A stretch of 64,000 nucleotides of DNA from contig NZ_BOOW01000027.1 of assembly GCF_016863435.1 (NCBI RefSeq), positions 62,001 through 126,000 on the forward strand, written 5' to 3'. Position 1 is the first letter of the stretch. Every line of letters starts with the position of its first letter. This stretch comes from Sinosporangium siamense (GTDB lineage: Bacteria > Actinomycetota > Actinomycetes > Streptosporangiales > Streptosporangiaceae). Below, piece after piece: positions 3,058-59,197 of the stretch. A model generated the notes under the pieces. That model searched no databases and was not told the DNA's origin. It saw only the letters and a program-made list of their open reading frames with translations. Position numbers and translations under genes: made by a program.

Positions 3058-5223
3058 CTATCCTTCTGAATCCGGTGGCCCGGCGCTCGTCGCCTGACCG
3101 GCGCGGACACAGGTCCCGCACGGCGAGGGTTGCTCCCGGCATGCCGGCTGGACGGTGATGGTGCAGAGCCGTTTGGTGGCACGGGTGAGGCCGACGTACA
3201 GGTCGCGTTCGCCACCGGGGCGGGCCGCGACGATCTCCGGCGGGTCGACGAGGAGCACGGCGTCGAATTCCAGGCCGCGGACATGGGAGGCCGGCACGAT
3301 GCGGGCCCACCGGCCGATTCCGGCGGCGGCCAGGCCGGCCGCCCGGGTGTCCGCGCAGATCACCGCGAGGAGGTCGCCCGGGTGCGCCGCGGCCTGGGCC
3401 CGCAGCTCGGACGCCAGCACGGCGGTGATCGTGTCCCGGTGGGCGGTGAGTTCGCGGGGGAGCGGGCCGTGGCGGAGCGCGCGGCTCGGCGTCTGGCCGG
3501 GGGCGATCCGGGCGAGCAGGTCGCGGGTGGCGGCGAGGATCTCGTGGGTGCTGCGGTAGCCGATGGTCAGCGTGTGCAGGGCATACCTGGTGCCCAGGTG
3601 CGGTTCCAGCGCCTCCGCCCAGGTGCGCGCCGTCGCCGCGGGGCCTGCCTGGGCGAAGTCGCCGACCAGGGTCATCGACCGGGAAGGGCAGCGGCGCAAG
3701 GCCATACGCCACTGCATGGCGGTCAGCTCCTGCGCCTCGTCGACGACCACGTGCCCGAAGGTGCGCCCTGGAGGACCCTCCACCAGGGCCGCGGCCTCGT
3801 CCAGCAGCACGGCGTCGGCGTCGGTCCAGCCGGCACCCGGGGTGCGCAGCAGCCGGGAGCGCTCCCGCTCGGTCAGCGAGGGCAGGTGGAGGGCCATCGC
3901 CTCGGCGTCCTCCAGGAGGGCGCGGACGACGGTCTCGGGAGTCAGCCGCGGCCACAGCGCCGCGACCGCCCGGTCGAAGCGGGAATCGCCGAGCAGGGCG
4001 GCGCGAACGGCGTCCGCGTCGAACTCCTCCGCCGGCGCCGCGTCCTGTGCGCCGTCGAAGCCGAGAGCGCGCAGGTCGGCCTCGACGGCCTCGTCGAGAT
4101 TGAGCCCGGTGCTCTCCACGGCCTCGGCGTCCATGGCCGCGAGGTCGGCGATCATCGCGCGCTCCACGGCGCCGGTGACCATGTCGGCGAGGTACCGCTT
4201 GAACAGCGCCCCGGCCGGGTTGTGCGCCAGGCCGCTCGTGACGGCCGCCTCCCGTGCCCTGGTCACGTCCTCGCGCGGCAGGCGGACCACCTCCTTTCCC
4301 ACCGGTACGGCGAAGCGGCGGTGCGGGGCCTGGCGGGAGCGGACCACGGCCGAGAGGGCGTCCGCCAGGCCGGCCGTGCCCTTGAGGCGGGCCGTCTCGG
4401 GGGGCTCCGCGTCGGCGGGTGTCACCGGCGCGAGGCCGGTGCAGGTCGCGAGGACGGCGCCGTTCTCCCCGAGGGAGGGGAGGACCTGGGAGATGTAGTC
4501 GAGGAAGCGCGTGTTCGGGCCGAGGATAAGCACGCCCTGCTCGGCAACGCGCGGGAACGCGTACAGCACATAGGCGGCCCGGTGCAGCGCGACCACCGTC
4601 TTGCCCGTGCCGGGGCCGCCCTGCACCACCGTCACTCCCCGGTGCGCGGAGCGCACGATCGTGTCCTGCTCGGCCTGCAGCGTCGCCACCGCGGCCCGCA
4701 TCCGCCCCGTCCGCCCGGCCTCGAGCGCCCGCGCCAGCGGGCCGTCGCCCACGACATCGCCGGCCGCCGCCGGCGAGCCGTCCAGGAGTTCGTCGCTCAC
4801 CGCCCGCACCCGGCGGTCCTCGACACGCAGGTGGCGGCGGCGCCTCAATCCCAGCGGGCGCAGCGGCGTCGCCTCGTAGAACGGCCGCGCCGCCTCGGCC
4901 CGCCAGTCGACCAGTAAGGGCGTCTCGCCGCCGTCCGTGCGCAGGCCGATCCGCCCGAGGTGCAGCACCGTCCCGTCCGCCGCGTCGATCCGGCCGAAGA
5001 CGAGCCCCTCCTCGGCCCCCTCCAGATGCCGGACCCGGCCGGCCAGGTGCCCCGCCGCGGCCTCTCGCGCGTATATCTCACCCGGACCGGCCGCCTCCGC
5101 CCGCAGCACGTCCGCCAGCCGCGCCCGCGCGTCCGCGAGCCGCTCGTCCAGGAGGTGGTAAACGGCGGTCACGTGACGCTGCTCCGCCTCCGCCTGACGC
5201 GCGCCGTCGTCGTCGAACCTCAC
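3058..5223 (-). CDS. helD: HelD-type superfamily I helicase-like ATPase
   Basis: This 721-residue UvrD/Rep-like protein resembles actinobacterial HelD, which binds RNA polymerase and releases stalled or drug-bound enzyme using ATP. The N-terminus is a charged helical hairpin. It is followed by the family's GRID and LVDWRAEAARPFYEAT segments (about residues 75-120). Walker A GGPGTGKT lies near residue 205, Walker B VVVDEAQEL near 490, then IGYRST, and C-terminal motifs RGLEFDAVLLV and YVGLTRATKRL. The GTG start at 5223 has a GAAAGG ribosome site about 10 bases upstream. HelR, the rifamycin-responsive relative, is a less likely identity: the N-terminal motifs look HelD-like and there is no full rifamycin-associated element upstream. 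Confidence 0.85.
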   Translation of the reverse strand: MRFDDDGARQAEAEQRHVTAVYHLLDERLADARARLADVLRAEAAGPGEIYAREAAAGHLAGRVRHLEGAEEGLVFGRIDAADGTVLHLGRIGLRTDGGETPLLVDWRAEAARPFYEATPLRPLGLRRRRHLRVEDRRVRAVSDELLDGSPAAAGDVVGDGPLARALEAGRTGRMRAAVATLQAEQDTIVRSAHRGVTVVQGGPGTGKTVVALHRAAYVLYAFPRVAEQGVLILGPNTRFLDYISQVLPSLGENGAVLATCTGLAPVTPADAEPPETARLKGTAGLADALSAVVRSRQAPHRRFAVPVGKEVVRLPREDVTRAREAAVTSGLAHNPAGALFKRYLADMVTGAVERAMIADLAAMDAEAVESTGLNLDEAVEADLRALGFDGAQDAAPAEEFDADAVRAALLGDSRFDRAVAALWPRLTPETVVRALLEDAEAMALHLPSLTERERSRLLRTPGAGWTDADAVLLDEAAALVEGPPGRTFGHVVVDEAQELTAMQWRMALRRCPSRSMTLVGDFAQAGPAATARTWAEALEPHLGTRYALHTLTIGYRSTHEILAATRDLLARIAPGQTPSRALRHGPLPRELTAHRDTITAVLASELRAQAAAHPGDLLAVICADTRAAGLAAAGIGRWARIVPASHVRGLEFDAVLLVDPPEIVAARPGGERDLYVGLTRATKRLCTITVQPACREQPSPCGTCVRAGQATSAGPPDSEG

Positions 5224-17170: not shown

Positions 17171-18292
17171 GTGACCGACAACCACCCGGCACCGCCGCCG
17201 GAACCGTCCTTGCGCCGTGCTCCGCGCGACCCGTGGGAGCGTGACAGCCCCACGGTGAGCACCGGCTTTGGGACGGGTGCCGCTGACACGTCCACCGGCC
17301 CGGCGGCGGGGGCCGTTGACGTGCCTCCCGGAGGCATGCGTCCGGGAGACACGTCGCCGGGCGGCGGTCCCGTAGCGGCTGCTGCCGCCGAGGTGTCCAC
17401 CGGGGGACCGCGTTCGAGAAGTGCCTTGGTAGGCACCGCTCCCCTGGCAGCGGACGTCCCCGATGCGGCTATCGAGGGAGTATGTCCTGGAGATGCGTCG
17501 AGGGATCGCAACGCCGCGAGCGCGGAGGGCGTCGATGCGTCACCGGAAGGCGTGAGTCCTGGACTCGCGCCGGAGAGCGGCGCTCCTGCGGTGCCGGGTG
17601 CCAACTGTCATCCCGAGAAGCCGCAGGGTCCGCGGGCCGCTCAGAAGCCCGGATCTCCCGGCCCATCGGGCGGCTCCCGGCCGGTGACCCGGCTGACCCT
17701 TATCTGTCACCTTTTGACGGAGGAGCAGGTCCGGGCCGTCTTCCCGGCGGGCGAGCCGTCCGAGGCTAGGCCGGCTTCCGCCGTACCGAGGTCCGCCATG
17801 TCGGCTTCTGCCGTACCGACACCCGAAATGTTGGCCTCCGCCGTACCGACACCGGATCTGTCGGCTTCCGCAGTACCGGTCGGGGGAGTGTTGCGGGGGC
17901 CTGAGAAGAGGTGTGCCGACACGGCGCTGCACCTAGGGCTCGCCGCCGGGGTCGATCCCGAGCTGCGCGACCAGGACCACGGCGTGTGGCGAAGACGCTC
18001 CCTGGCCGAGGTCCAGGCGGCCGACCCCGCCGGGGTGGCCGCCTGGTTGACCGACCCCGGCGCCGCACCCCACGGCGGCGAGTCGCTGCGGGCCCTGCTC
18101 ACCCGAGTGGGCGAGTGGCTCGACCGGCTGCCGGCGGGCAGAGTGACCGCGATCACGCATCCCGCCGTAGTCCGGGCCGCGATCGTGCACGCCCTCGGCG
18201 CCCCGCCGGGCGCGTGGCGCCGCCTCGACCCGACCCCCCTCGCCCGCGTCACCCTCACCGGCCGGGACGGGCGCTGGAATGTGCGCTTGTGA
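17171..18292 (+). CDS. Histidine-phosphatase-like protein with low-complexity N-terminus and internal repeats
   Basis: The C-terminal half (from about residue 172) is a histidine phosphatase/phosphoglycerate-mutase-like domain. It has TRLTLICHLLTEEQ (His kept, the usual RHG replaced by CHL), GPEKRCADTA, HGGESLRALL and AITHPAVVRAAI. Homologues in cobalamin clusters are about 200 residues; this frame encodes 373. The excess is an N-terminal 170-residue Pro/Gly/Ala/Ser-rich segment and four internal 10-residue repeats (ASAVPTPxxL, 17773-17892). GTG 17684 would give a protein of normal start. Neither start has a good ribosome site. It sits in the cbtB-cbtA run, so a role in cobamide metabolism (CobC-like dephosphorylation) is possible but unproven. 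Confidence 0.65.
   Translation: MTDNHPAPPPEPSLRRAPRDPWERDSPTVSTGFGTGAADTSTGPAAGAVDVPPGGMRPGDTSPGGGPVAAAAAEVSTGGPRSRSALVGTAPLAADVPDAAIEGVCPGDASRDRNAASAEGVDASPEGVSPGLAPESGAPAVPGANCHPEKPQGPRAAQKPGSPGPSGGSRPVTRLTLICHLLTEEQVRAVFPAGEPSEARPASAVPRSAMSASAVPTPEMLASAVPTPDLSASAVPVGGVLRGPEKRCADTALHLGLAAGVDPELRDQDHGVWRRRSLAEVQAADPAGVAAWLTDPGAAPHGGESLRALLTRVGEWLDRLPAGRVTAITHPAVVRAAIVHALGAPPGAWRRLDPTPLARVTLTGRDGRWNVRL
17773..17892 (+). repeat. Four in-frame 30-bp tandem repeats
   Basis: Units begin at 17773, 17803, 17833 and 17863, each opening with GGCTTCCGCCGTACCG or a one- or two-base variant. The encoded units are ASAVPRSAMS, ASAVPTPEML, ASAVPTPDLS and ASAVPVGGVL. The reverse complement of the unit head, CGGTACGGCGGAAGCC, is the same core as in the intergenic arrays near 50.1 kb. 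Confidence 0.85.
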
Positions 18293-18390: not shown

Positions 18391-20414
18391 ACACCTATCC
18401 CTTCACCGCGGTCGTCGGCATGGACGACCTCAAACTCGCCCTCATCCTCAACGCCGTCTCCCCCCGCGTCGGCGGCGTGCTCGTCCGCGGCGAGAAGGGC
18501 ACCGCCAAGTCGACCATCGTGCGTGCCCTCGCCGCCCTGCTGCCTGCCGTCCACGTAGTACGCGGCTGCCGCTTCTCCTGCGACCCCGCCGCCCCCGACC
18601 CCGGCTGCCCCGACGGCCCCCACGAGACCGCCGCCGACAGCGGCCAGATGCGCCCCGCCGCCCTCGTCGAACTCCCCGTCGGCGCCTCAGAGGACCGCCT
18701 CGCCGGATCACTCGACCTGGAACGCGCCCTCACCGAAGGCGTCAAAGCCTTCGAACCCGGCCTCCTGGCCGCCGCCCACCGCGGAGTGCTCTACGTCGAC
18801 GAGGTCAACCTGCTCCACGACCACCTCGTCGACCTGCTGCTCGACGCCGCCGCCCTCGGCACCTGCTACGTCGAACGCGAAGGCGTCTCGGTGCGGCACG
18901 CCGCCAGGTTCCTCCTCGTCGGCACCATGAACCCCGAAGAGGGGGAATTGCGGCCCCAACTGCTCGACCGTTTCGGCCTGACCGTCGAGGTGCGCGCCCC
19001 GCGCGACCCAGAGCCTCGGGCGGAGGTCGTACGGCGACGCCTCGCCTTCGACGCCGACCCCGAAACCTTCGTTGCCCGGTGGCAAGACGCCGAACACGAC
19101 CTCGCCGCCCGCATCGCCGACGCCAGGGCCAGAGTCGCCGGCGTGGCCCTCCCCGACAACGCCCTCCGCCAGATCGCCGCCGTCTGCGCCGGCTTCGAAG
19201 TCGACGGCCTCCGCGCCGACCTCGTCACCGCCAACGCCGCCATCGCCCACGCCGCCTGGCGCGGCGGCGAGACCGTGACGGCGGAAGACGTACGGCAGGC
19301 AGCCCGCCTGGCCCTCCCGCACCGGCGACGGCGCAACCCCTTCGACGCCCCCGGGCTGGACGAGTCACTCCTCGACGACCTCCTCGACCAGACGACGGGT
19401 GAGGACCCCGACGACGAGCCCCCGGCCGGCCCGGGCGGCGATGGCGGCCCGGACGGCGGCGGCACTCCACCCGGGCAGGGCCCCGGCCCGGAGCAGGCAC
19501 CCGAAGACGCTACCCCTCAGGACACGGTCCCGCCCAAGCCCCCAAGGCAGCCTCCCGCCGACACCCAGGAGAGCCGGAAGCCGGAAGGCTCCGCCCCAGG
19601 TGAATCCATCGCCGCCGCGGCCGAGCCGTACCGAGTCCGCCCCTTGCGCGTGCCCGGCATCGGCGAAGGCGCCGAAGGCCGTCGCTCCCGCGCCCGCACC
19701 GGCAAAGGCCGCATCACCGCCTCCCGCCCACCCCAGGGCCGCCTGCAGTCCCCCCACCTCCTCGCCACCCTCCGCGCCGCCGCCCCCCACCAGCACGAAC
19801 GCGGCCGTACCGGCACCGGACTCATCGTGGAACCCGGCGACCTGCGCGAAGCCGTACGGGAAGGCATGGAGAGCAACCTGGTCCTTTTCGTCGTCGACGC
19901 CAGCGGATCCATGGCCGCCCGCAAACGCATGACCGAGGTGAAAGGCGCGGTGCTGAGCCTCCTGCTCGACGCCTACCAGCGCCGGGACAAGGTCGGCCTC
20001 ATCACCTTCCGAGGCACCACGGCCACCCTCGCCCTCCCCCCGACCTCCTCCGTGGAAGCCGGCGCCGCCCGCCTCCGCGAACTCCCCACCGGCGGCCGCA
20101 CCCCCCTGGCCGCCGCCCTCCTGAAAGCCGCCGATGTCCTTCGCATCGAACGCATGCGCGACCCCTCCCGCCGCCCCCTCCTCATCGTCGTCACCGACGG
20201 CCGAACCACCTCCGGCACCGTCCACGACGTCCACCGCGCCGCCGCCCACCTCACCGGCACCCCCGCCGTAGTGGTCGACTGCGAAACCGGCCCCATCCGC
20301 CTCGGCCTCGCCACTGCCCTCGCCACCCACCTGCACGCCGAATCGATCCCCCTGGCAGGCCTCGCCGCCGGCGGCCTGGCCGGCATGGTCCGCGACCGCC
20401 GCCGCGCGGCCTGA
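18387..20414 (+). CDS. ChlI/ChlD-type AAA-VWA chelatase subunit (putative cobaltochelatase)
   Basis: This 675-residue fusion joins an N-terminal AAA+ ATPase like magnesium chelatase subunit I and a C-terminal von Willebrand A domain like subunit D. Walker A is GEKGTAKST (residues 35-43). RGVLYVDEVNLL is Walker B. A Pro/Gly-rich acidic linker spans about residues 325-420. The metal-binding MIDAS is DASGSM near residue 504 with TGGRTPLA after it. In B12 clusters this protein works with CobN to insert cobalt, and its place after cbtBA supports that. No cobN lies in the window. The GTG start at 18387 has GGAGGG just upstream. Downstream the cobalamin genes resume only at 22717. Confidence 0.88.
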   Translation: MNTYPFTAVVGMDDLKLALILNAVSPRVGGVLVRGEKGTAKSTIVRALAALLPAVHVVRGCRFSCDPAAPDPGCPDGPHETAADSGQMRPAALVELPVGASEDRLAGSLDLERALTEGVKAFEPGLLAAAHRGVLYVDEVNLLHDHLVDLLLDAAALGTCYVEREGVSVRHAARFLLVGTMNPEEGELRPQLLDRFGLTVEVRAPRDPEPRAEVVRRRLAFDADPETFVARWQDAEHDLAARIADARARVAGVALPDNALRQIAAVCAGFEVDGLRADLVTANAAIAHAAWRGGETVTAEDVRQAARLALPHRRRRNPFDAPGLDESLLDDLLDQTTGEDPDDEPPAGPGGDGGPDGGGTPPGQGPGPEQAPEDATPQDTVPPKPPRQPPADTQESRKPEGSAPGESIAAAAEPYRVRPLRVPGIGEGAEGRRSRARTGKGRITASRPPQGRLQSPHLLATLRAAAPHQHERGRTGTGLIVEPGDLREAVREGMESNLVLFVVDASGSMAARKRMTEVKGAVLSLLLDAYQRRDKVGLITFRGTTATLALPPTSSVEAGAARLRELPTGGRTPLAAALLKAADVLRIERMRDPSRRPLLIVVTDGRTTSGTVHDVHRAAAHLTGTPAVVVDCETGPIRLGLATALATHLHAESIPLAGLAAGGLAGMVRDRRRAA

Positions 20415-26276: not shown

Positions 26277-27140
26277 CTACGTCGTAAAGGCGCTGGGCGG
26301 TACAGAAGGCAGCCGATGCGGTTCCACCGAGATCCCCGCCTCCCGCAGCAGTTCCCCCACCACGGCCGAAGCCTGCTCCACCGTGAACCGCCGGGCGGGG
26401 TCCCGCTGCAGCAACCCCTCAAGCACCGGCCACAGCGGCCCCGACTTCACGGGAGGCCGCGGCCCGGCCGCCATCATGCCGCTGAGCACCGTGACCACGT
26501 CGGCCCCGGGGAACGGGGGACACCCCTCCACCGCGTGATAGAGCGAGGCCCCGAACGACCACAGATCGGCAGCCGCCGTCGGAACCTCCCCCTGAAACCG
26601 CTCAGGCGCGATGAAAGCCGGCGCGGACGTCAAAGCCAGGGCCGTCCCGGCGTCACGTCCGATGCTCGCCAGGCCGAACTCGGACAAAAGTACGCGATTG
26701 CCGGTCAGCAGAATGGTGGCGGGGCTCAGACTCTCGTGGAACACGCCGAGCCCGTGGGCGTGCCGCAGCGCGCCGAGGAGCTGGAAGCCGATCCACGCCG
26801 CCCAGCGCGGCGGCAGGGGCCCCACGTGGAGCACGGTGTCGCGGAGGGACAGGCCCTCGACGAGCTCCGTCACGATCCAGAGGCGTCCGGCCTCCTCCAC
26901 GAGGTCGTGCACGGTGATGATCGCAGGGTGGCTCAGGCGGCCGGCGGAGCGCGCTTCGCGCAGGGCGCGGCGGCGGGCCTCCCGGGGGCCTGCGCCGTTC
27001 CTGGGCCGGGGCTCGATCTCCTTGATCGCGACGTCGCGGCGCAGGCGCAGGTCGTGAGCGCGCCAGACGACCTCGGCGACGCCTCGGTTGAGTCGCGACT
27101 TCACCTGGTAGCGATCTGCCAGGAGCTGTGCGCTCTCCAC
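26277..27140 (-). CDS. Ser/Thr protein kinase homologue lacking catalytic residues (probable pseudokinase)
   Basis: This 287-residue eukaryotic-type kinase fold keeps the ATP-anchoring Lys in RDVAIKEIE, a conserved Glu helix, APAFIAPERF in place of the APE motif and DLWSFGASLYH. The catalytic loop HRDLKPxN is degraded to HESLSPAT, so the general-base Asp, the Lys and the Asn are gone. DFG is changed to EFG. It has no transmembrane or sensor domain. It probably acts as a regulator or scaffold. GTG 27140 is preferred: GGAGG lies 8 bases upstream and the kinase fold begins 10 residues later. Longer upstream starts extend the frame to 27320 without recognisable content. The gene points away from pup. 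Confidence 0.8.
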   Translation of the reverse strand: MESAQLLADRYQVKSRLNRGVAEVVWRAHDLRLRRDVAIKEIEPRPRNGAGPREARRRALREARSAGRLSHPAIITVHDLVEEAGRLWIVTELVEGLSLRDTVLHVGPLPPRWAAWIGFQLLGALRHAHGLGVFHESLSPATILLTGNRVLLSEFGLASIGRDAGTALALTSAPAFIAPERFQGEVPTAAADLWSFGASLYHAVEGCPPFPGADVVTVLSGMMAAGPRPPVKSGPLWPVLEGLLQRDPARRFTVEQASAVVGELLREAGISVEPHRLPSVPPSAFTT

Positions 27141-45447: not shown

Positions 45448-48270
45448 ATGACCACAATCGGGGTTGACGTTGGTGGAACGTTCACCGACCTGGTGTCGTT
45501 CGACACCACCACCAAGAAGATCACCGTCGCCAAGCATCCCACCACCCCCGCCGCGCCCGAGCGCGGCGTGCTCGCCGCCGTGGACGCGGCCGTGGGCGCT
45601 GCCGGGCTCGCCCGGTGCGAATACTTCGTCCACGGCACCACCGTGGGCCTGAACGCCCTCCTGGAGCGCCGCGGGGCCGCGGTCGGCCTCATCACCACCG
45701 AAGGGTTCCGCGACGTCCTGGAGATCAGACGTGGCGACCGCGACGACCCCTACGACCTCTTCTGGACACCCCCGCCGCCCCTGGTCCCGCGCAGACTCCG
45801 GCAGGAGGTCGCCGAGCGCGTCGCCGCGGACGGCTCCGTGGTGCGGCCCCTCGACCCCGCGGGCGTACGGCGGGCCGCGGCGGCCTTCGCCGCAGAAGGC
45901 GTCGGCACGGTGGCGGTCGTCCTCATCAACGCCTACGCCAACCCGGCCCACGAACACGCCGTCCTCGCGGCTCTCCGCTCGTCCGGCTTCACCGGGGAGG
46001 TGTCGCTGTCACACGAGGTGTCGGGCGAGTACCGCGAGTACGAACGCACCACGACCACGGTCGTCGACGCCCTGGTACGCCACCGCATGGGCCCCTACCT
46101 CCACAACCTCGACCACGAACTCCGCACCCGGGGCTTCACCGGAAAACTCCTCGTCACCCGCTCGGGCGGTGGCGCCCTCACCCTGGAGGAGGCGGCCAAG
46201 CGGCCTTTCGAAACCATCCTTTCCGGCCCTGTCGCCGGCGCCACCGCCACCGCCCACCTGGCCCACACCCTTGGCCTGGTGCCGGCCCCGGCCGGCTCTG
46301 TCGCCGAGCCGCTCCTGCCTCTTGAGGGAGCGAGCCGGGCCGAGGCATCAGGTGTTGTCACGGCCGGTGTGAGGGCCGGTGTGACAGCCGGTTCGACGGC
46401 CGTCGTGACGGATCCGGCCGGGTCGTCTGGGTTGACGTCCGGCGGTGTCGGCGGCACGCCCGGTTCTGCGGACTCTTCGGTCGCCGGAGCCGACGCCGTG
46501 CCGCCGCCCGGCGGCTGCCGGAGCGGCGTGCCGGGGGTCGCGGCGGGTCCGGCGGAGCCGTCCGGCCGGGCAGCTGCCGGTGGGGGTGCCGGGCCGCTCG
46601 GCTCGGCTCTTGCGGCTCAGCCGCTGAGGGATGTGGCCGCGGGTCAGGGTGAGGCGTTGGGGGCGTTCTCGGTCCCTCATGGCGAGTTGCCGGGGGCGAT
46701 GTCCGCTGTCGGCGGTCAGCCCGGGGTGGCCGCTGGGGTTGGGCGGGTTTGGTCGGTGGGGGAGGCTCTGGGGCTTAGTGCGGCGATTGCGGCTGATGTC
46801 GGGGGCACGAGTTTTGATACGGCGCTGATTGAGGACGGCAGGTTGCCGTTGCTCTTTCAGGGGCAGGTGACGGGGCTGCCGTTGCAGTGCCCGTGGGTTG
46901 ATGTCAGGTCCGTGGGGGCGGGGGGTGGATCGGTCGCCTATGTCGACGTGGGCGGGCTGTTGCGGGTCGGGCCGCGCAGTGCGGGGGCCGTGCCCGGTCC
47001 CGCCTGTTATCGGCGTGGCGGCGGCGAGCCGACCGTCACCGACGCCGCCCTCCACCTCGGGCTGATCCTGCCGGGGCACCTCGCGGGCGGTGTCGATCTG
47101 GCTCCCGGGCTCGCAGAGGCCGCCCTGGCGCCTCTGGCGGCGCCGGCGGGGCTCCCGGGCACCGACGCGGTGGCCGAGGGTGTGCTGCGCATCGCGGCGG
47201 CTCACATGGCGCAAGCCGTACGCGGGGTCACGGTGGAGCGCGGGGTGGACCCGCGGCGGGCCGCGCTCGTGGCCTTCGGGGGCGCGGGGCCGCTGTTCGG
47301 CTGCCTGCTGGCCGACGAGCTCGGGCTGAGCGCCGTCGTCGTCCCGCCCAACGCGGGCAACTTCTCGGCCGCCGGGCTCATCCAGGCCGACCTGGTCCGC
47401 AGCACGGCCCGCACCCTGCTGCGGCCCCTGTCGGACCCCACCCTCAAGGAGGCCCTCGACCTCGCAGAGACGCTCCTCACCCGCCTCACCGCGCCGTACG
47501 GCGAAGCCGCACAACCCGAGCAGGTGATATCCGTACTGCACGAGCCCGTGGACGGCCCTGGGGTGTCCACCGGGGGCGCCGGCCGCCGGAGCGGTCTGGC
47601 AGGGCCCCTGAGCGCCCGCACGGCGTCCGCCGAGCCCGTCGGTGGCCCAGAGGGGCATCCGCGCAGAGATGGTCGGGAGCGGCCCGTGAACGCCCCCTCG
47701 GCGCCGGGCGAGGCCGTCCGGCCTCTGAGGGAGCATCCGCCGTACGGCGAGGCCCTGCTTGACCGCCTGTGGCCCCGCACGGGGTCTGGCGAGGACCTTC
47801 GGAACTCGGGGGAGCATCCGCCGGCCGGCGAGGCCGTGCGGGAGGTCGATCTCGATCTGCGCCATCAAGGGCAGGAGCACACGCTCACGGTCCGGGTGGC
47901 GAAGGGAGAGAGCGCGGCGGAGGTGCGGGCCGCCTTCACGGGCGCCTACCGGCGTGCCTTCGGGCATGAACTGCCGGGTCCGCTGGAGATCGTGACCGTG
48001 CGGGCCACTCTGCGGGTGCCGCGGGCGCGGCACGGCGGACCGCTGCCCGCGCCTCCGGAGGCGGGTGAGGAGCGGGAGATCGACGTGTGGTCCTTCCGGC
48101 GGCGGGCCCGCGTCCGGACCCGGGCCGTGCCGAGGAGCGCGCTCACCGCCCCCGAGGCCGGCCCTCTCGTGGTGACAGAGCCCACCGCCACGACCTACGT
48201 GGACGAGGGCTTCGCCGTACGTCCTCACCCGAGCGGAGTGCTGTTGATCACCAGGGAGGAGACGACATGA
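45448..48270 (+). CDS. hyuA: Hydantoinase A/oxoprolinase subunit (HyuA) with two in-frame insertions
   Basis: This ATP-dependent hydantoinase/5-oxoprolinase alpha-type subunit starts TTIGVDVGGTFTDLVSFD and keeps FVHGTTVGLNALLERRG, SHEVSGEYREYERTTTTVVDA, IAADVGGTSFD and VAFGGAGPLFG. Usual length is about 670-690; here it is 940. The excess sits in two Gly/Ala/Pro-rich segments. One (about 46282-46758, 159 residues) falls between HLAHTLGL and SAAIAADVGG in the ATPase core. The other (about 47500-47840, 113 residues) falls before VDLDLRHQGQEHTLTV. The second contains GTACGGC repeat copies. It acts with the HyuB subunit that follows, its stop overlapping that start (ATGA). Whether the enlarged enzyme works is unknown. 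Confidence 0.9.
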   Translation: MTTIGVDVGGTFTDLVSFDTTTKKITVAKHPTTPAAPERGVLAAVDAAVGAAGLARCEYFVHGTTVGLNALLERRGAAVGLITTEGFRDVLEIRRGDRDDPYDLFWTPPPPLVPRRLRQEVAERVAADGSVVRPLDPAGVRRAAAAFAAEGVGTVAVVLINAYANPAHEHAVLAALRSSGFTGEVSLSHEVSGEYREYERTTTTVVDALVRHRMGPYLHNLDHELRTRGFTGKLLVTRSGGGALTLEEAAKRPFETILSGPVAGATATAHLAHTLGLVPAPAGSVAEPLLPLEGASRAEASGVVTAGVRAGVTAGSTAVVTDPAGSSGLTSGGVGGTPGSADSSVAGADAVPPPGGCRSGVPGVAAGPAEPSGRAAAGGGAGPLGSALAAQPLRDVAAGQGEALGAFSVPHGELPGAMSAVGGQPGVAAGVGRVWSVGEALGLSAAIAADVGGTSFDTALIEDGRLPLLFQGQVTGLPLQCPWVDVRSVGAGGGSVAYVDVGGLLRVGPRSAGAVPGPACYRRGGGEPTVTDAALHLGLILPGHLAGGVDLAPGLAEAALAPLAAPAGLPGTDAVAEGVLRIAAAHMAQAVRGVTVERGVDPRRAALVAFGGAGPLFGCLLADELGLSAVVVPPNAGNFSAAGLIQADLVRSTARTLLRPLSDPTLKEALDLAETLLTRLTAPYGEAAQPEQVISVLHEPVDGPGVSTGGAGRRSGLAGPLSARTASAEPVGGPEGHPRRDGRERPVNAPSAPGEAVRPLREHPPYGEALLDRLWPRTGSGEDLRNSGEHPPAGEAVREVDLDLRHQGQEHTLTVRVAKGESAAEVRAAFTGAYRRAFGHELPGPLEIVTVRATLRVPRARHGGPLPAPPEAGEEREIDVWSFRRRARVRTRAVPRSALTAPEAGPLVVTEPTATTYVDEGFAVRPHPSGVLLITREETT
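46282..46758 (+). repeat. Low-complexity in-frame insertion 1 in hyuA
   Basis: About 477 bases encode Gly/Ala/Ser/Val/Pro-rich sequence with short internal repetitions (VTAGVRAGVTAG). It is flanked by LGL on both sides (HTLGL and EALGL). Codon use has more T and G in third position than the surrounding hyuA sequence. Confidence 0.6.
47500..47840 (+). repeat. In-frame insertion 2 in hyuA built from GTACGGC-type repeats
   Basis: Repeated (P)YGEA/xGEA units occur at about 47500, 47741 and 47826. The DNA around the middle copy, CCGTACGGCGAGGCCCTGCT followed by TGACCGC, parallels the intergenic array units near 50.05-50.2 kb. EHPPYGEA and EHPPAGEA recur about 84 bases apart. Confidence 0.6.
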
Positions 48271-49973
48271 CGCGGACCGTCAGAACGGTCTTCGCCGCCG
48301 CGGACCCGGGGCGGGGCGCCGGGGCGGATCCGATCACCACCGAGATCGTGCGGCAGGGCCTCAACGCCGCCGCCGACCACATGAAGCGGGCCGTCGTCCG
48401 CACCGCCTTCTCCCCGATCATCTACGAGGCGCTGGACTTCGCGGTGGCGTTCTACGACGCCGACATGTGCATGCTGGCCCAGGCGCCCACTCTGCCGGCA
48501 TTCATGGGCACTCTGGGCTTCTGCGTGCGGGCCGCCGTCGAGGGGGTGGGCGGCCCCGCCGCGCTGAATCCGGGGGACGTGATCCTCTACAACGACCCTT
48601 ACGGCACGGGCTCGCACCCGCAGGACGCCGCCATGGTCGTGCCGGTCTTCGTGGACGGCACCCTGACGGCCTATTCCGCGATCAAGGCCCACTGGCTAGA
48701 CATAGGCGGCAAAGACCCCTATTGCACCGACACCCTCGACGTCTACCAGGAGGGCACGATCTTCCCCGGCGTCAAACTGTACGACGCCGGCCGCCTCGTC
48801 ACCGACATCCACCGCATGATCCTCGCCAACAGCCGCATGGCGGACGCGGTCGCCGGCGACATCGACGCGATGGTCGCCGGCGCCAGGGCCGGAGGGGAGG
48901 CCCTGGCCGCACTCGTCGAGAGGTACGGCAGAGCCGAGTTCGACACCTGCGTCGCCCGCATGTACTCCCACGGCGAGGCACTCGTCCGCGCCTTCCTCGC
49001 GGCTCTCCCCGACGGGGAGTACACCGCGAGCGGCACGATCGACTCCGACGGCGTCGGCGGCGTGCCCGTGCCCTTCGGGGTGAGGGTGACGGTCGAAGGC
49101 TCACGCGTCGAGATCGACCTCACCGGCTGCCCCGATCAGACTCCCGGGCCGATCAACTGCCCGCTGCCCTCCACGGTGGCCGCCTGCCGCCTCGCCGTGG
49201 CGTTCCTCGCGGGGGCGGGGGAGCAGCCCAACGAGGGCCACTTCCGGCCGCTCGAAATCCTCACCCGCGAAGGATCGCTGTTCCACCCCGTGCGGCCCGC
49301 CCCCTGCTTCATGTACGGCATCCCGGCCGACCACCTCATCGAACTCGTGCTCGACGCCCTCGCCGAGGTGGTGCCGGACGTGCCCGCGGCCAGCGGCGGC
49401 GACATCAACGCGCTGGTGTGGTGGGGGCGGCGCGAGGCCGGCGAACCCTGGGCCGACGGCGCGCCCCACCCCGTCGGGCAGGGGGCGTCGCGGCACGGCG
49501 ACGGGGCCGCGGCGCTCATGTACCTGTCGCAGTCGGCCACCCGCCTCACCCCCGCCGAGGTCTGGGAGGCACGCAATCCCTGGCGCGTCGAACGGCTCGC
49601 CCTGGCCGCAGACTCCGGCGGACCCGGGAGGTTCCGGGGCGGGCTCGGGCTCGATCTCTCGGTGCGCTGCCTGGAAGATCAGCACCTCACGAGCGCTCTG
49701 GCCCGCACCGCCACCGCCCCATGGGGGAGGGACGGAGGGCTTCCGGGCCGCCCGAACCGGCTCGTCGTCGAGCACCCCGGCGGCCGAATCGAGGAATGTG
49801 CTCTGCGAACCCGCATTCCCTTGGCCAAGGGTGCCGTCGTACACTTGCGGACCGGCTCAGGTGGCGGATACGGCCATCCGGGCCGGCGAGACCCCGAAGC
49901 GGTCCGCACCGACCTGCGCGAGGGCTACATCACCGAGGAGCATGCGCGTCGCCATTACCCGCACGCGCTCTGA
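48267..49973 (+). CDS. hyuB: Hydantoinase B/oxoprolinase beta subunit (HyuB)
   Basis: This 568-residue HyuB-type partner begins after a 20-residue leader with DPITTEIVRQGLNAAADHMK. The conserved EALDFAVAFYDADM, NDPYGTGSHPQDAAMVVPVF, IDLTGCPDQTPGPINCPL and the Gly-rich end LRTGSGGGYGHPGRRDP follow. With HyuA it cleaves a cyclic amide such as a hydantoin or 5-oxoproline using ATP. The ATG at 48267 overlaps the hyuA stop. The array of short repeats lies directly after its stop. Confidence 0.93.
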   Translation: MTRTVRTVFAAADPGRGAGADPITTEIVRQGLNAAADHMKRAVVRTAFSPIIYEALDFAVAFYDADMCMLAQAPTLPAFMGTLGFCVRAAVEGVGGPAALNPGDVILYNDPYGTGSHPQDAAMVVPVFVDGTLTAYSAIKAHWLDIGGKDPYCTDTLDVYQEGTIFPGVKLYDAGRLVTDIHRMILANSRMADAVAGDIDAMVAGARAGGEALAALVERYGRAEFDTCVARMYSHGEALVRAFLAALPDGEYTASGTIDSDGVGGVPVPFGVRVTVEGSRVEIDLTGCPDQTPGPINCPLPSTVAACRLAVAFLAGAGEQPNEGHFRPLEILTREGSLFHPVRPAPCFMYGIPADHLIELVLDALAEVVPDVPAASGGDINALVWWGRREAGEPWADGAPHPVGQGASRHGDGAAALMYLSQSATRLTPAEVWEARNPWRVERLALAADSGGPGRFRGGLGLDLSVRCLEDQHLTSALARTATAPWGRDGGLPGRPNRLVVEHPGGRIEECALRTRIPLAKGAVVHLRTGSGGGYGHPGRRDPEAVRTDLREGYITEEHARRHYPHAL

Positions 49974-50046: not shown

Positions 50047-50260
50047 CACGGCGAAGCCCTCTTGACTGCGGCGTCCCCTGGGCGGGGGCCGTACGGCGAA
50101 GTCTTCTCGACCACCGGCGGGCGGTACGGCGGAAGCCCTCTTGACTGCGGCGTCCCCTGGGCGGGGGCCGTACGGCGAAGCCTTCTTGACCGCGGCGTCC
50201 CCTGGGCGGGGCCGTGCGGCGGAGCCTTCTTGACGCCGGCGGGCGGTACGGCGAAGCCGT
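50047..50260. repeat. Tandem array of GTACGGC-headed units
   Basis: Six heads, GCACGGCGAAGCC, GTACGGCGAAGTC, GTACGGCGGAAGCC, GTACGGCGAAGCC, GTGCGGCGGAGCC and GTACGGCGAAGCC, start at about 50047, 50091, 50124, 50170, 50214 and 50247. Unit lengths are about 44, 33, 46, 44 and 33. The longer units share GCGGCGTCCCCTGGGCGGGG; the shorter carry CCGGCGGGCG. It fills most of the 323-base gap between convergent hyuB and the DUF3866 gene. Confidence 0.85.
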
Positions 50261-50296
50261 CGCCTGGGCGGAAGCGTCTCAGGCCGGCGGTGTGAT

Positions 50297-59160: not shown

Positions 59161-59197
59161 CGTACGGCGGAGCCGGGGATGCCGGCTCCGCCGTACG
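59161..59197 (+). terminator. Terminator after helY, built from two GTACGGC cores
   Basis: CGTACGGCGGAGCCGG (59161-59176) and its perfect complement (59182-59197), loop GGATG, form a 16-bp stem 6 bases after the helY stop. Each arm carries the repeat core found in the arrays. Confidence 0.8.

Follow-up and report, generated by a model that had tools for sequence, protein, structure and literature searches.

Two long in-frame disordered inserts in a HyuA-like enzyme subunit of a Sinosporangium species, absent from the 34 relatives checked

How does a conserved enzyme subunit come to be 262 residues longer than its counterpart in a sister species, and what becomes of the enzyme? The question is raised by a HyuA-like gene in the 64,000-nucleotide stretch of DNA analyzed here (the window), which derives from a second Sinosporangium species beside Sinosporangium album. 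The predicted protein has 940 residues, as against 678 in S. album, its closest relative at 79% identity. The most probable account, in our view, is that of lineage-specific disordered expansions at length-tolerant sites of a normal HyuA. The gene and its neighbor are as follows:

45448 to 48270, plus strand: HyuA-like gene (hydantoinase/oxoprolinase subunit A), 940 amino acids, with Pfam PF05378 and PF01968 matches far over the cut-offs.
48267 to 49973, plus strand: HyuB-like partner gene, full length, matching positions 1 to 519 of the 519 of PF02538.

The family assignment is based on several lines of evidence. HyuA scored 166.7 bits against PF05378 and 264.3 bits against PF01968 (cut-offs 25.2 and 22.9, respectively), with the PF01968 match split into two stretches, the better of which covers residues 426 to 651. 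In addition to both domains, the protein has the residues that are invariant family-wide, the family fold and an adjoining HyuB-type partner, the ATG start codon of which overlaps the HyuA stop codon. Foldseek placed N-methylhydantoinase, acetophenone carboxylase, acetone carboxylase and caprolactamase nearest amongst solved folds, and the same enzymes were recovered by sequence search. For the named enzymes with NCBIfam equivalog models, the scores remained below the cut-offs, i.e., 363.5 of 1000 bits for the caprolactamase alpha subunit, 244.4 of 1500 for the acetophenone carboxylase gamma subunit and 119.5 of 1250 for its alpha subunit. What sets the window HyuA apart from the family is the presence of two long disordered inserts, neither of which was seen in the 34 relatives checked.

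The window is colinear from 11982 to 61362 with the fetched part of the S. album contig (53,999 bp), and this allowed the inserts to be delimited at the DNA level. By BLASTN against the sister contig, 46277-46782 comprised 506 bp against 8, and 47487-47823 comprised 337 bp against 36, whilst protein chaining gave net gains of 166 and 90 residues, respectively:

46277 to 46782, plus strand: insert 1, a gain of about 166 residues dominated by G, A, V, P and S, which none of the 34 relatives checked shares.
47487 to 47823, plus strand: insert 2, which lengthens the linker preceding the C-terminal domain by about 90 to 100 residues, as delimited by BLASTN, protein chaining and the structure model.

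Both segments are thus confirmed to be present in HyuA as a first-pass annotation had described them. That annotation put the two in-frame insertions at about 270 residues in total, which agrees well with the excess of 262 over the sister protein. It held that their removal would give a protein of normal length; the S. album protein has 678 residues, and 29 near-complete orthologues have 664 to 719. The annotation was also right that both inserts keep the frame and contain no stop codon. Nevertheless, 25% of order-1 shuffles of insert 1 and 20% of those of insert 2 were also free of stops in frame, so that the absence of stops is, by itself, weak evidence.

The orthologues were drawn from a scan of one genome per species, which yielded 65 distinct loci encoding HyuA relatives. 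Thirty-two of these were taken for alignment; 29 gave near-complete proteins, two yielded no ORF with the search pattern used and one was cut by a contig end. Both long segments were missing from the alignment rows displayed alongside the window HyuA. A site survey with the S. album protein as query covered 49 loci, from which 15 repeats were removed. The 34 distinct relatives that remained, with S. album among them, spanned identities of 40-100%. Neither insert was present in any of the 34 (site 2 being readable in 33, since L038 ends before it). At site 1, 28 relatives had no extra residue and six had four; at site 2, the largest gain was 29 residues, in L022. Comparison with orthologues had been named in advance as a possible refutation of the observation, which has come through it. 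Amongst 150 family genomes surveyed, 18 orthologues at 77-87% identity were found besides the window's own. One of these, in genome G034, looked like a further case of a long HyuA and was rejected, the protein being the 716-residue L025 of Sphaerimonospora thailandensis with an open frame extending upstream. The S. thailandensis HyuA does have a short insert of its own, a repeat of GVEK units in a different loop.

When indels were counted in 15-residue bins along the protein, the insert 1 bin contained indels in six of 32 orthologues, the maximum for the catalytic part (sister residues 1-494), with a largest gain of four residues. The insert 2 bin had indels in 28 of 32, the maximum for the whole protein, with a largest gain of 29, and was nearly matched by two other C-terminal bins (25 and 27 of 32). 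Orthologue length therefore varies at both sites, making insertion there less surprising than had originally been supposed. The distribution of indels in the aligned sequences suggests that the inserts fell where relatives already vary in length.

It had been feared that an insertion at such a site would disturb folding. An AlphaFold model from a 20-sequence alignment had a mean pLDDT of 57.1. With an alignment of 50 sequences, to which neither the shorter loci nor additional close relatives were admitted, the mean was 75.5 and 545 of the 940 residues were at 90 or above. Most core blocks of HyuA were predicted at 88-98, and pLDDT was below 50 at residues 284-337, 339-435, 686-689 and 691-792. 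Thus, residues 284-435 of insert 1 (pLDDT about 24-39) and 691-792 of insert 2 (about 29-42) are predicted to be disordered. In the model, insert 1 lies between a helix at 259-274 and a strand at 445-451, with a short helix at 437-441. This strand leads into the second phosphate loop and insert 1 stands at its start; in sequence, the segment had correctly been placed directly before that loop. Insert 2 lies between a helix at 663-687 and a strand at 796-806. The feared disturbance of the fold finds no support in the 50-sequence model, in which the core is confident and both segments loop out as disorder.

The conservation of the core is consistent with this picture. HyuA departed at three of 262 columns that were invariant in 19 other sequences in a first alignment (two of 261 for the sister), and at none of the 47 columns that did not vary in a set of 49 other sequences. 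A less favorable comparison was that with just the 14 closest relatives, in which the window departed at 19 of 374 invariant columns and the sister at 14. Of 500 sites at which a strong majority of the outgroup agreed, the window alone had changed at 21 and the sister alone at 20. Pairwise dN/dS between HyuA and the sister was 0.21 overall, 0.15 for residues 1-274, 0.12 for 446-660 and 0.35 for 797-940, values that also average over time preceding the insertions. From sequence conservation and the model, we infer that HyuA is probably still functional, and that the segments would be tolerated and dispensable.

These data bear on two other explanations. The gene might be a decaying pseudogene, or the inserts an assembly error, a concern given that the assembly is a draft in 84 contigs. 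However, the frame and core are kept with no clear excess of changes, the neighboring HyuB is intact and no second copy of the inserts was found among 40 candidates scored of 258 and 283. Gene decay was judged unlikely from the core comparisons, and the explanation as a whole is very improbable. Alternatively, the inserts could be a gained functional part, serving the HyuA-HyuB enzyme as, for example, a flexible tether or a region for binding, as a frame kept without stops and a conserved core would allow. No structure is predicted for the segments, however, and they occur in no relative checked, so that their conservation cannot be demonstrated; we regard a gained function as decidedly unlikely.

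In order to judge how unusual such expansions are, we compared 136 ORFs that are conserved between the source genome and S. album, over a total of 52,452 aligned residues; a number of these ORFs are overlapping frames and not genes. The DNA sampled comprised the window, 200 kb of 400 kb from contig C6, 54 kb of contig C5 of genome G001 (taken to be S. album, as it contains a 200-bp stretch of the S. album locus L020) and 10 of 16 stretches from G001 contigs C90, C59 and C53, the six stretches left out being from C59 and C53. The source genome was longer by at least 20 residues in six rows, i.e., +471, +311, HyuA +166, HyuA +90, +38.7 and +20.7. The +311 row looks like a tandem gene copy, and the +38.7 and +20.7 rows look like ORFs in the wrong frame. 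The +471 row is a repeat-rich, disordered-looking protein. S. album was the longer in seven rows, five of them by 20-34 residues. In the reverse run, with 124 S. album ORFs as query, the source genome was longer in nine rows by 23 to 473 residues, two of these rows being the HyuA locus in another frame, and S. album was longer in five. Large rows other than HyuA were discounted on visual inspection, being taken for gene fragments, repeat-rich proteins or ORFs in the wrong frame. By this reading, no folded enzyme in the sample has larger insertions than the two of HyuA.

Conserved ORFs other than HyuA contained smaller biased indels, of 20-34 residues, in each of the two Sinosporangium genomes; both HyuA inserts exceed this size. 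A histidine phosphatase encoded at 17171-18289 of the window has an ASAVP repeat in a loop where four of nine aligned relatives have different biased expansions, suggesting that such growth recurs in the family. The HyuA case would accordingly seem to be an unusually large instance of ordinary protein growth. A literature search on Sinosporangium genomes, the 13-mer described below, low-complexity insertions in actinobacteria, N-methylhydantoinase structures and in-frame palindromic elements found nothing on the HyuA gene. A parallel may be drawn with Plasmodium, in which low-complexity regions are described as being inserted in coding sequences (PMC11260460). The two cases are alike in having biased, disordered stretches inserted in conserved proteins, and differ in that the present one concerns a GC-rich actinomycete and a single folded enzyme accepted in the sample against S. 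album. HyuA offers a clear bacterial case, in which a conserved enzyme subunit has gained some 260 mostly disordered residues with its core still constrained and a close relative without the segments, and it provides a simple system for asking what disordered segments cost.

Both inserts qualify as low-complexity or disordered insertions, being absent in orthologues and having no predicted structure, with a compositional bias that is clear in insert 1 and weak in insert 2. In insert 1, 126 of 168 residues are G, A, V, P or S, and the mean entropy of 45-residue windows was 2.98, compared with 3.41 for the core (lowest core window, 2.80). Insert 2, comparatively rich in P, G, A, R and E, is little less complex than the core (3.31 versus 3.41). 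The description of both segments as low-complexity hence suits insert 1 and fits insert 2 weakly. GC content was flat across the three codon positions in insert 1, which lacks the codon-position pattern of the core.

The two inserts also differ in their internal repeats, as listed below together with a short motif near the start of insert 2:

46356 to 46411, plus strand: weak 12-bp tandem repeat within insert 1, 4.7 copies, 75% matches.
47496 to 47508, plus strand: the dispersed 13-mer GTACGGCGAAGCC without mismatch, at the start of insert 2.
47693 to 47839, plus strand: two copies of a 66-nt repeat, 74% identical, at a spacing of 81 bp (27 codons); none of 200 shuffles reached the self-repeat score.

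The 12-bp tandem is the best self-repeat of insert 1, its score being reached by six of 200 shuffles (7 of 200 and 80 of 200 for two core controls), and insert 1 is otherwise without marked self-similarity. In contrast, the self-repeat score of insert 2 was reached by none of 200 shuffles of that insert. Its 81-bp repeat step, at 27 codons, preserves the frame, and the second 66-nt copy reaches native GEAVRE-like sequence, GEAVRE also being present in L037. Insert 2 additionally contains three copies of a 17-mer that includes the dispersed 13-mer or variants of it. Repeated residues had been noted at the borders of the inserts; PYGEA...PAGEA corresponds to a DNA repeat (17 nt, 82-94% identical) next to the 66-nt one, whereas LGL...LGL was not listed as one. 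The proposal that the segments grew by slippage or repeat insertion is thus supported for insert 2, with its 81-bp duplication and 17-mer copies, and hardly for insert 1.

Amongst 40 candidates scored of 258 and 283, no source of the inserts was found elsewhere in the genome; insert 2 had no other match there and insert 1 had two short partial matches. With a weak repeat and no clear genomic source, slippage is conjectural for insert 1. Under the account that we prefer, a normal HyuA would have gained two disordered, compositionally biased stretches, most likely after the split from S. album, one in the turn between the helix and the phosphate-2 strand and the other in the linker to the C-terminal domain. 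Local duplication and slippage within GC-rich sequence may have produced insert 2 at the DNA level, perhaps starting from intergenic-type DNA that carried the 13-mer. Insert 1 may have had a similar origin and be older or degraded.

The core sequence that follows insert 1 has a further peculiarity:

46783 to 46950, plus strand: core stretch with changed strand composition and conserved protein sequence, adjoining insert 1.

Third positions in this stretch were G or T in 33 of 40 codons, compared with 13 of 40 in the sister. The sister is the closest relative over residues 1-274 (82.7% nucleotide identity) and 501-660 (81.0%) but not over residues 446-500 (165 bp), where it was 75.2% identical and seven of 18 other relatives were closer (75.8-77.6%). 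The loss of closeness to S. album points beyond a simple insertion. In a scan of composition between the window and S. album, the strongest shifts were at 19650-20400, at 26294-26647 and at insert 1, the last being the strongest in its direction; the shift in the right flank of insert 1 lay at the 98th percentile. Recombination bringing in DNA of an unsampled lineage would fit, and so would a burst of change confined to this site. Insert 1 and its right flank might have been brought in together by recombination with such a lineage, or the flank rewritten by a local error-prone event at insertion. However, the stretch is just 165 bp, no relative stands out as donor (the best reaching 77.6%) and the insert is in none of the 34 relatives. 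A general link between insertion borders and strand-biased flank changes was also considered and set aside as weak, since 301 of 5000 random draws were as high as the value over all 30 flanks of larger insertions. We consider this origin for insert 1 unlikely, and retain expansion within the lineage as the better explanation.

The first-pass annotation had also stated that the second insertion holds a dispersed repeat, and the exact 13-mer at 47496-47508 is indeed such a copy. In a search of 200 family genomes, GTACGGCGAAGCC had 335 occurrences in the source genome and 74 in S. album, as against 0-53 in each of the remaining genomes; the reversed 13-mer, used as a control, had 0-2 per genome. 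None of the papers covered by a text search contained GTACGGCGAAGCC or its complement. Such numbers raise the possibility that insert 2, and perhaps insert 1, derives from a selfish element that is dispersed in the genome, bears the 13-mer as its mark and inserts in frame into genes, in the manner of the Rickettsia palindromic elements. The latter are described as in-frame additions to metabolic genes by an element of about 150 bp (PMC10969869). HyuA is alike in being a metabolic gene with in-frame additions and a dispersed repeat, and unlike in that no element of about 150 bp is shared between sites, only the 13-bp core recurs and insert 2 folds no better than chance.

The genomic distribution of the 13-mer lends this possibility some support. 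When either A or G was accepted as the ninth base, the stretches that could be compared contained 26 copies, of which 17 lay in DNA lacking in the sister. This DNA is the part that makes up 27-31% of bases; the copies cluster, and the figure therefore gives no clean probability. The HyuA copy is one of two found inside conserved ORFs yet in sister-lacking DNA, and the +311 row contains the other. Between the two domain matches of a glycosyltransferase there is likewise a biased stretch that includes the 13-mer motif. Against an element, the flanks of the copies are dissimilar beyond 13 bp, which led us to reject the idea that the 13-mer belongs to some longer conserved element; the 40 candidates scored of 258 and 283 included no additional full copy of either insert; and insert 2 folded no better than its shuffles (z -0.83). 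Moreover, of the 10 copies that fall in conserved ORFs, eight have aligned counterparts in the sister, ruling out a count of in-gene copies as insertions. The folding z of insert 1 was -2.33. The eight aligned copies in ORFs, of nine sister-aligned copies in all, are by our reading ordinary codons. On balance, an inserting selfish element is a rather improbable source of the segments.

A broader conjecture, which we put forward as a long shot, is that the copies of GTACGGCGAAGCC rose into the hundreds in a single actinomycete lineage, their flanks unrelated and most of them located in sister-lacking DNA, and that the 13-mer drives or marks the insertion and tandem growth of DNA, sometimes in frame within conserved enzymes like HyuA; a repeat of minimal size would then give rise to disordered segments. 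The lineage-amplified 13-mer is the most curious side finding of the analysis, and it may relate to the growth of species-specific DNA in these genomes.

The 13-mer GTACGGCGAAGCC was counted over 200 genomes of the family and was found 335 times in S. siamense versus 74 times in S. album, with each of the remaining family genomes carrying 0-53 copies. Within the window, copies were located at 47496 (in insert 2 of HyuA), 50170, 50246, 56130, 59162, 59184 and 59221. Seventeen of the 26 comparable copies, for which either A or G was accepted at the ninth base, sit in DNA that is absent from S. album. When the flanks of the copies were compared, no sequence conservation was found in them.

Strand-biased change, relative to S. 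album, was detected in patches at 46783-46950, 19650-20400 and 26294-26647, all situated close to indel borders. In the first of these, which adjoins insert 1 of HyuA (46277-46782), closeness to S. album was also lost.

Three further coding regions stood out:
17171-18289 of the window, gene for a histidine phosphatase whose N-terminal part includes a biased stretch and which bears an ASAVP repeat in a loop
~212640-215175 of C6, another contig of this genome, conserved ORF with ~471 residues more than in S. album
3264-4607 of locus L106, glycosyltransferase with two domain matches

At the ASAVP loop of the phosphatase, other expansions were present in four of nine aligned relatives, and the S. 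album match at this locus consisted of a 52-residue fragment only. The excess in the C6 ORF includes GEYARPSGAT-type repeats. In the glycosyltransferase, the 13-mer lies within a biased stretch of ~70 residues (187-258) that separates the two domain matches.

An array 3' of HyuB (50048-50278) comprises units of ~44 and ~124 bp containing 13-mer-like cores. Pairs of 13-mer-like copies in facing orientation, separated by a short gap, were observed at 59162-59196 and at 293-327 of a second locus, L134; judging from their sequence, such pairs could form a hairpin stem.
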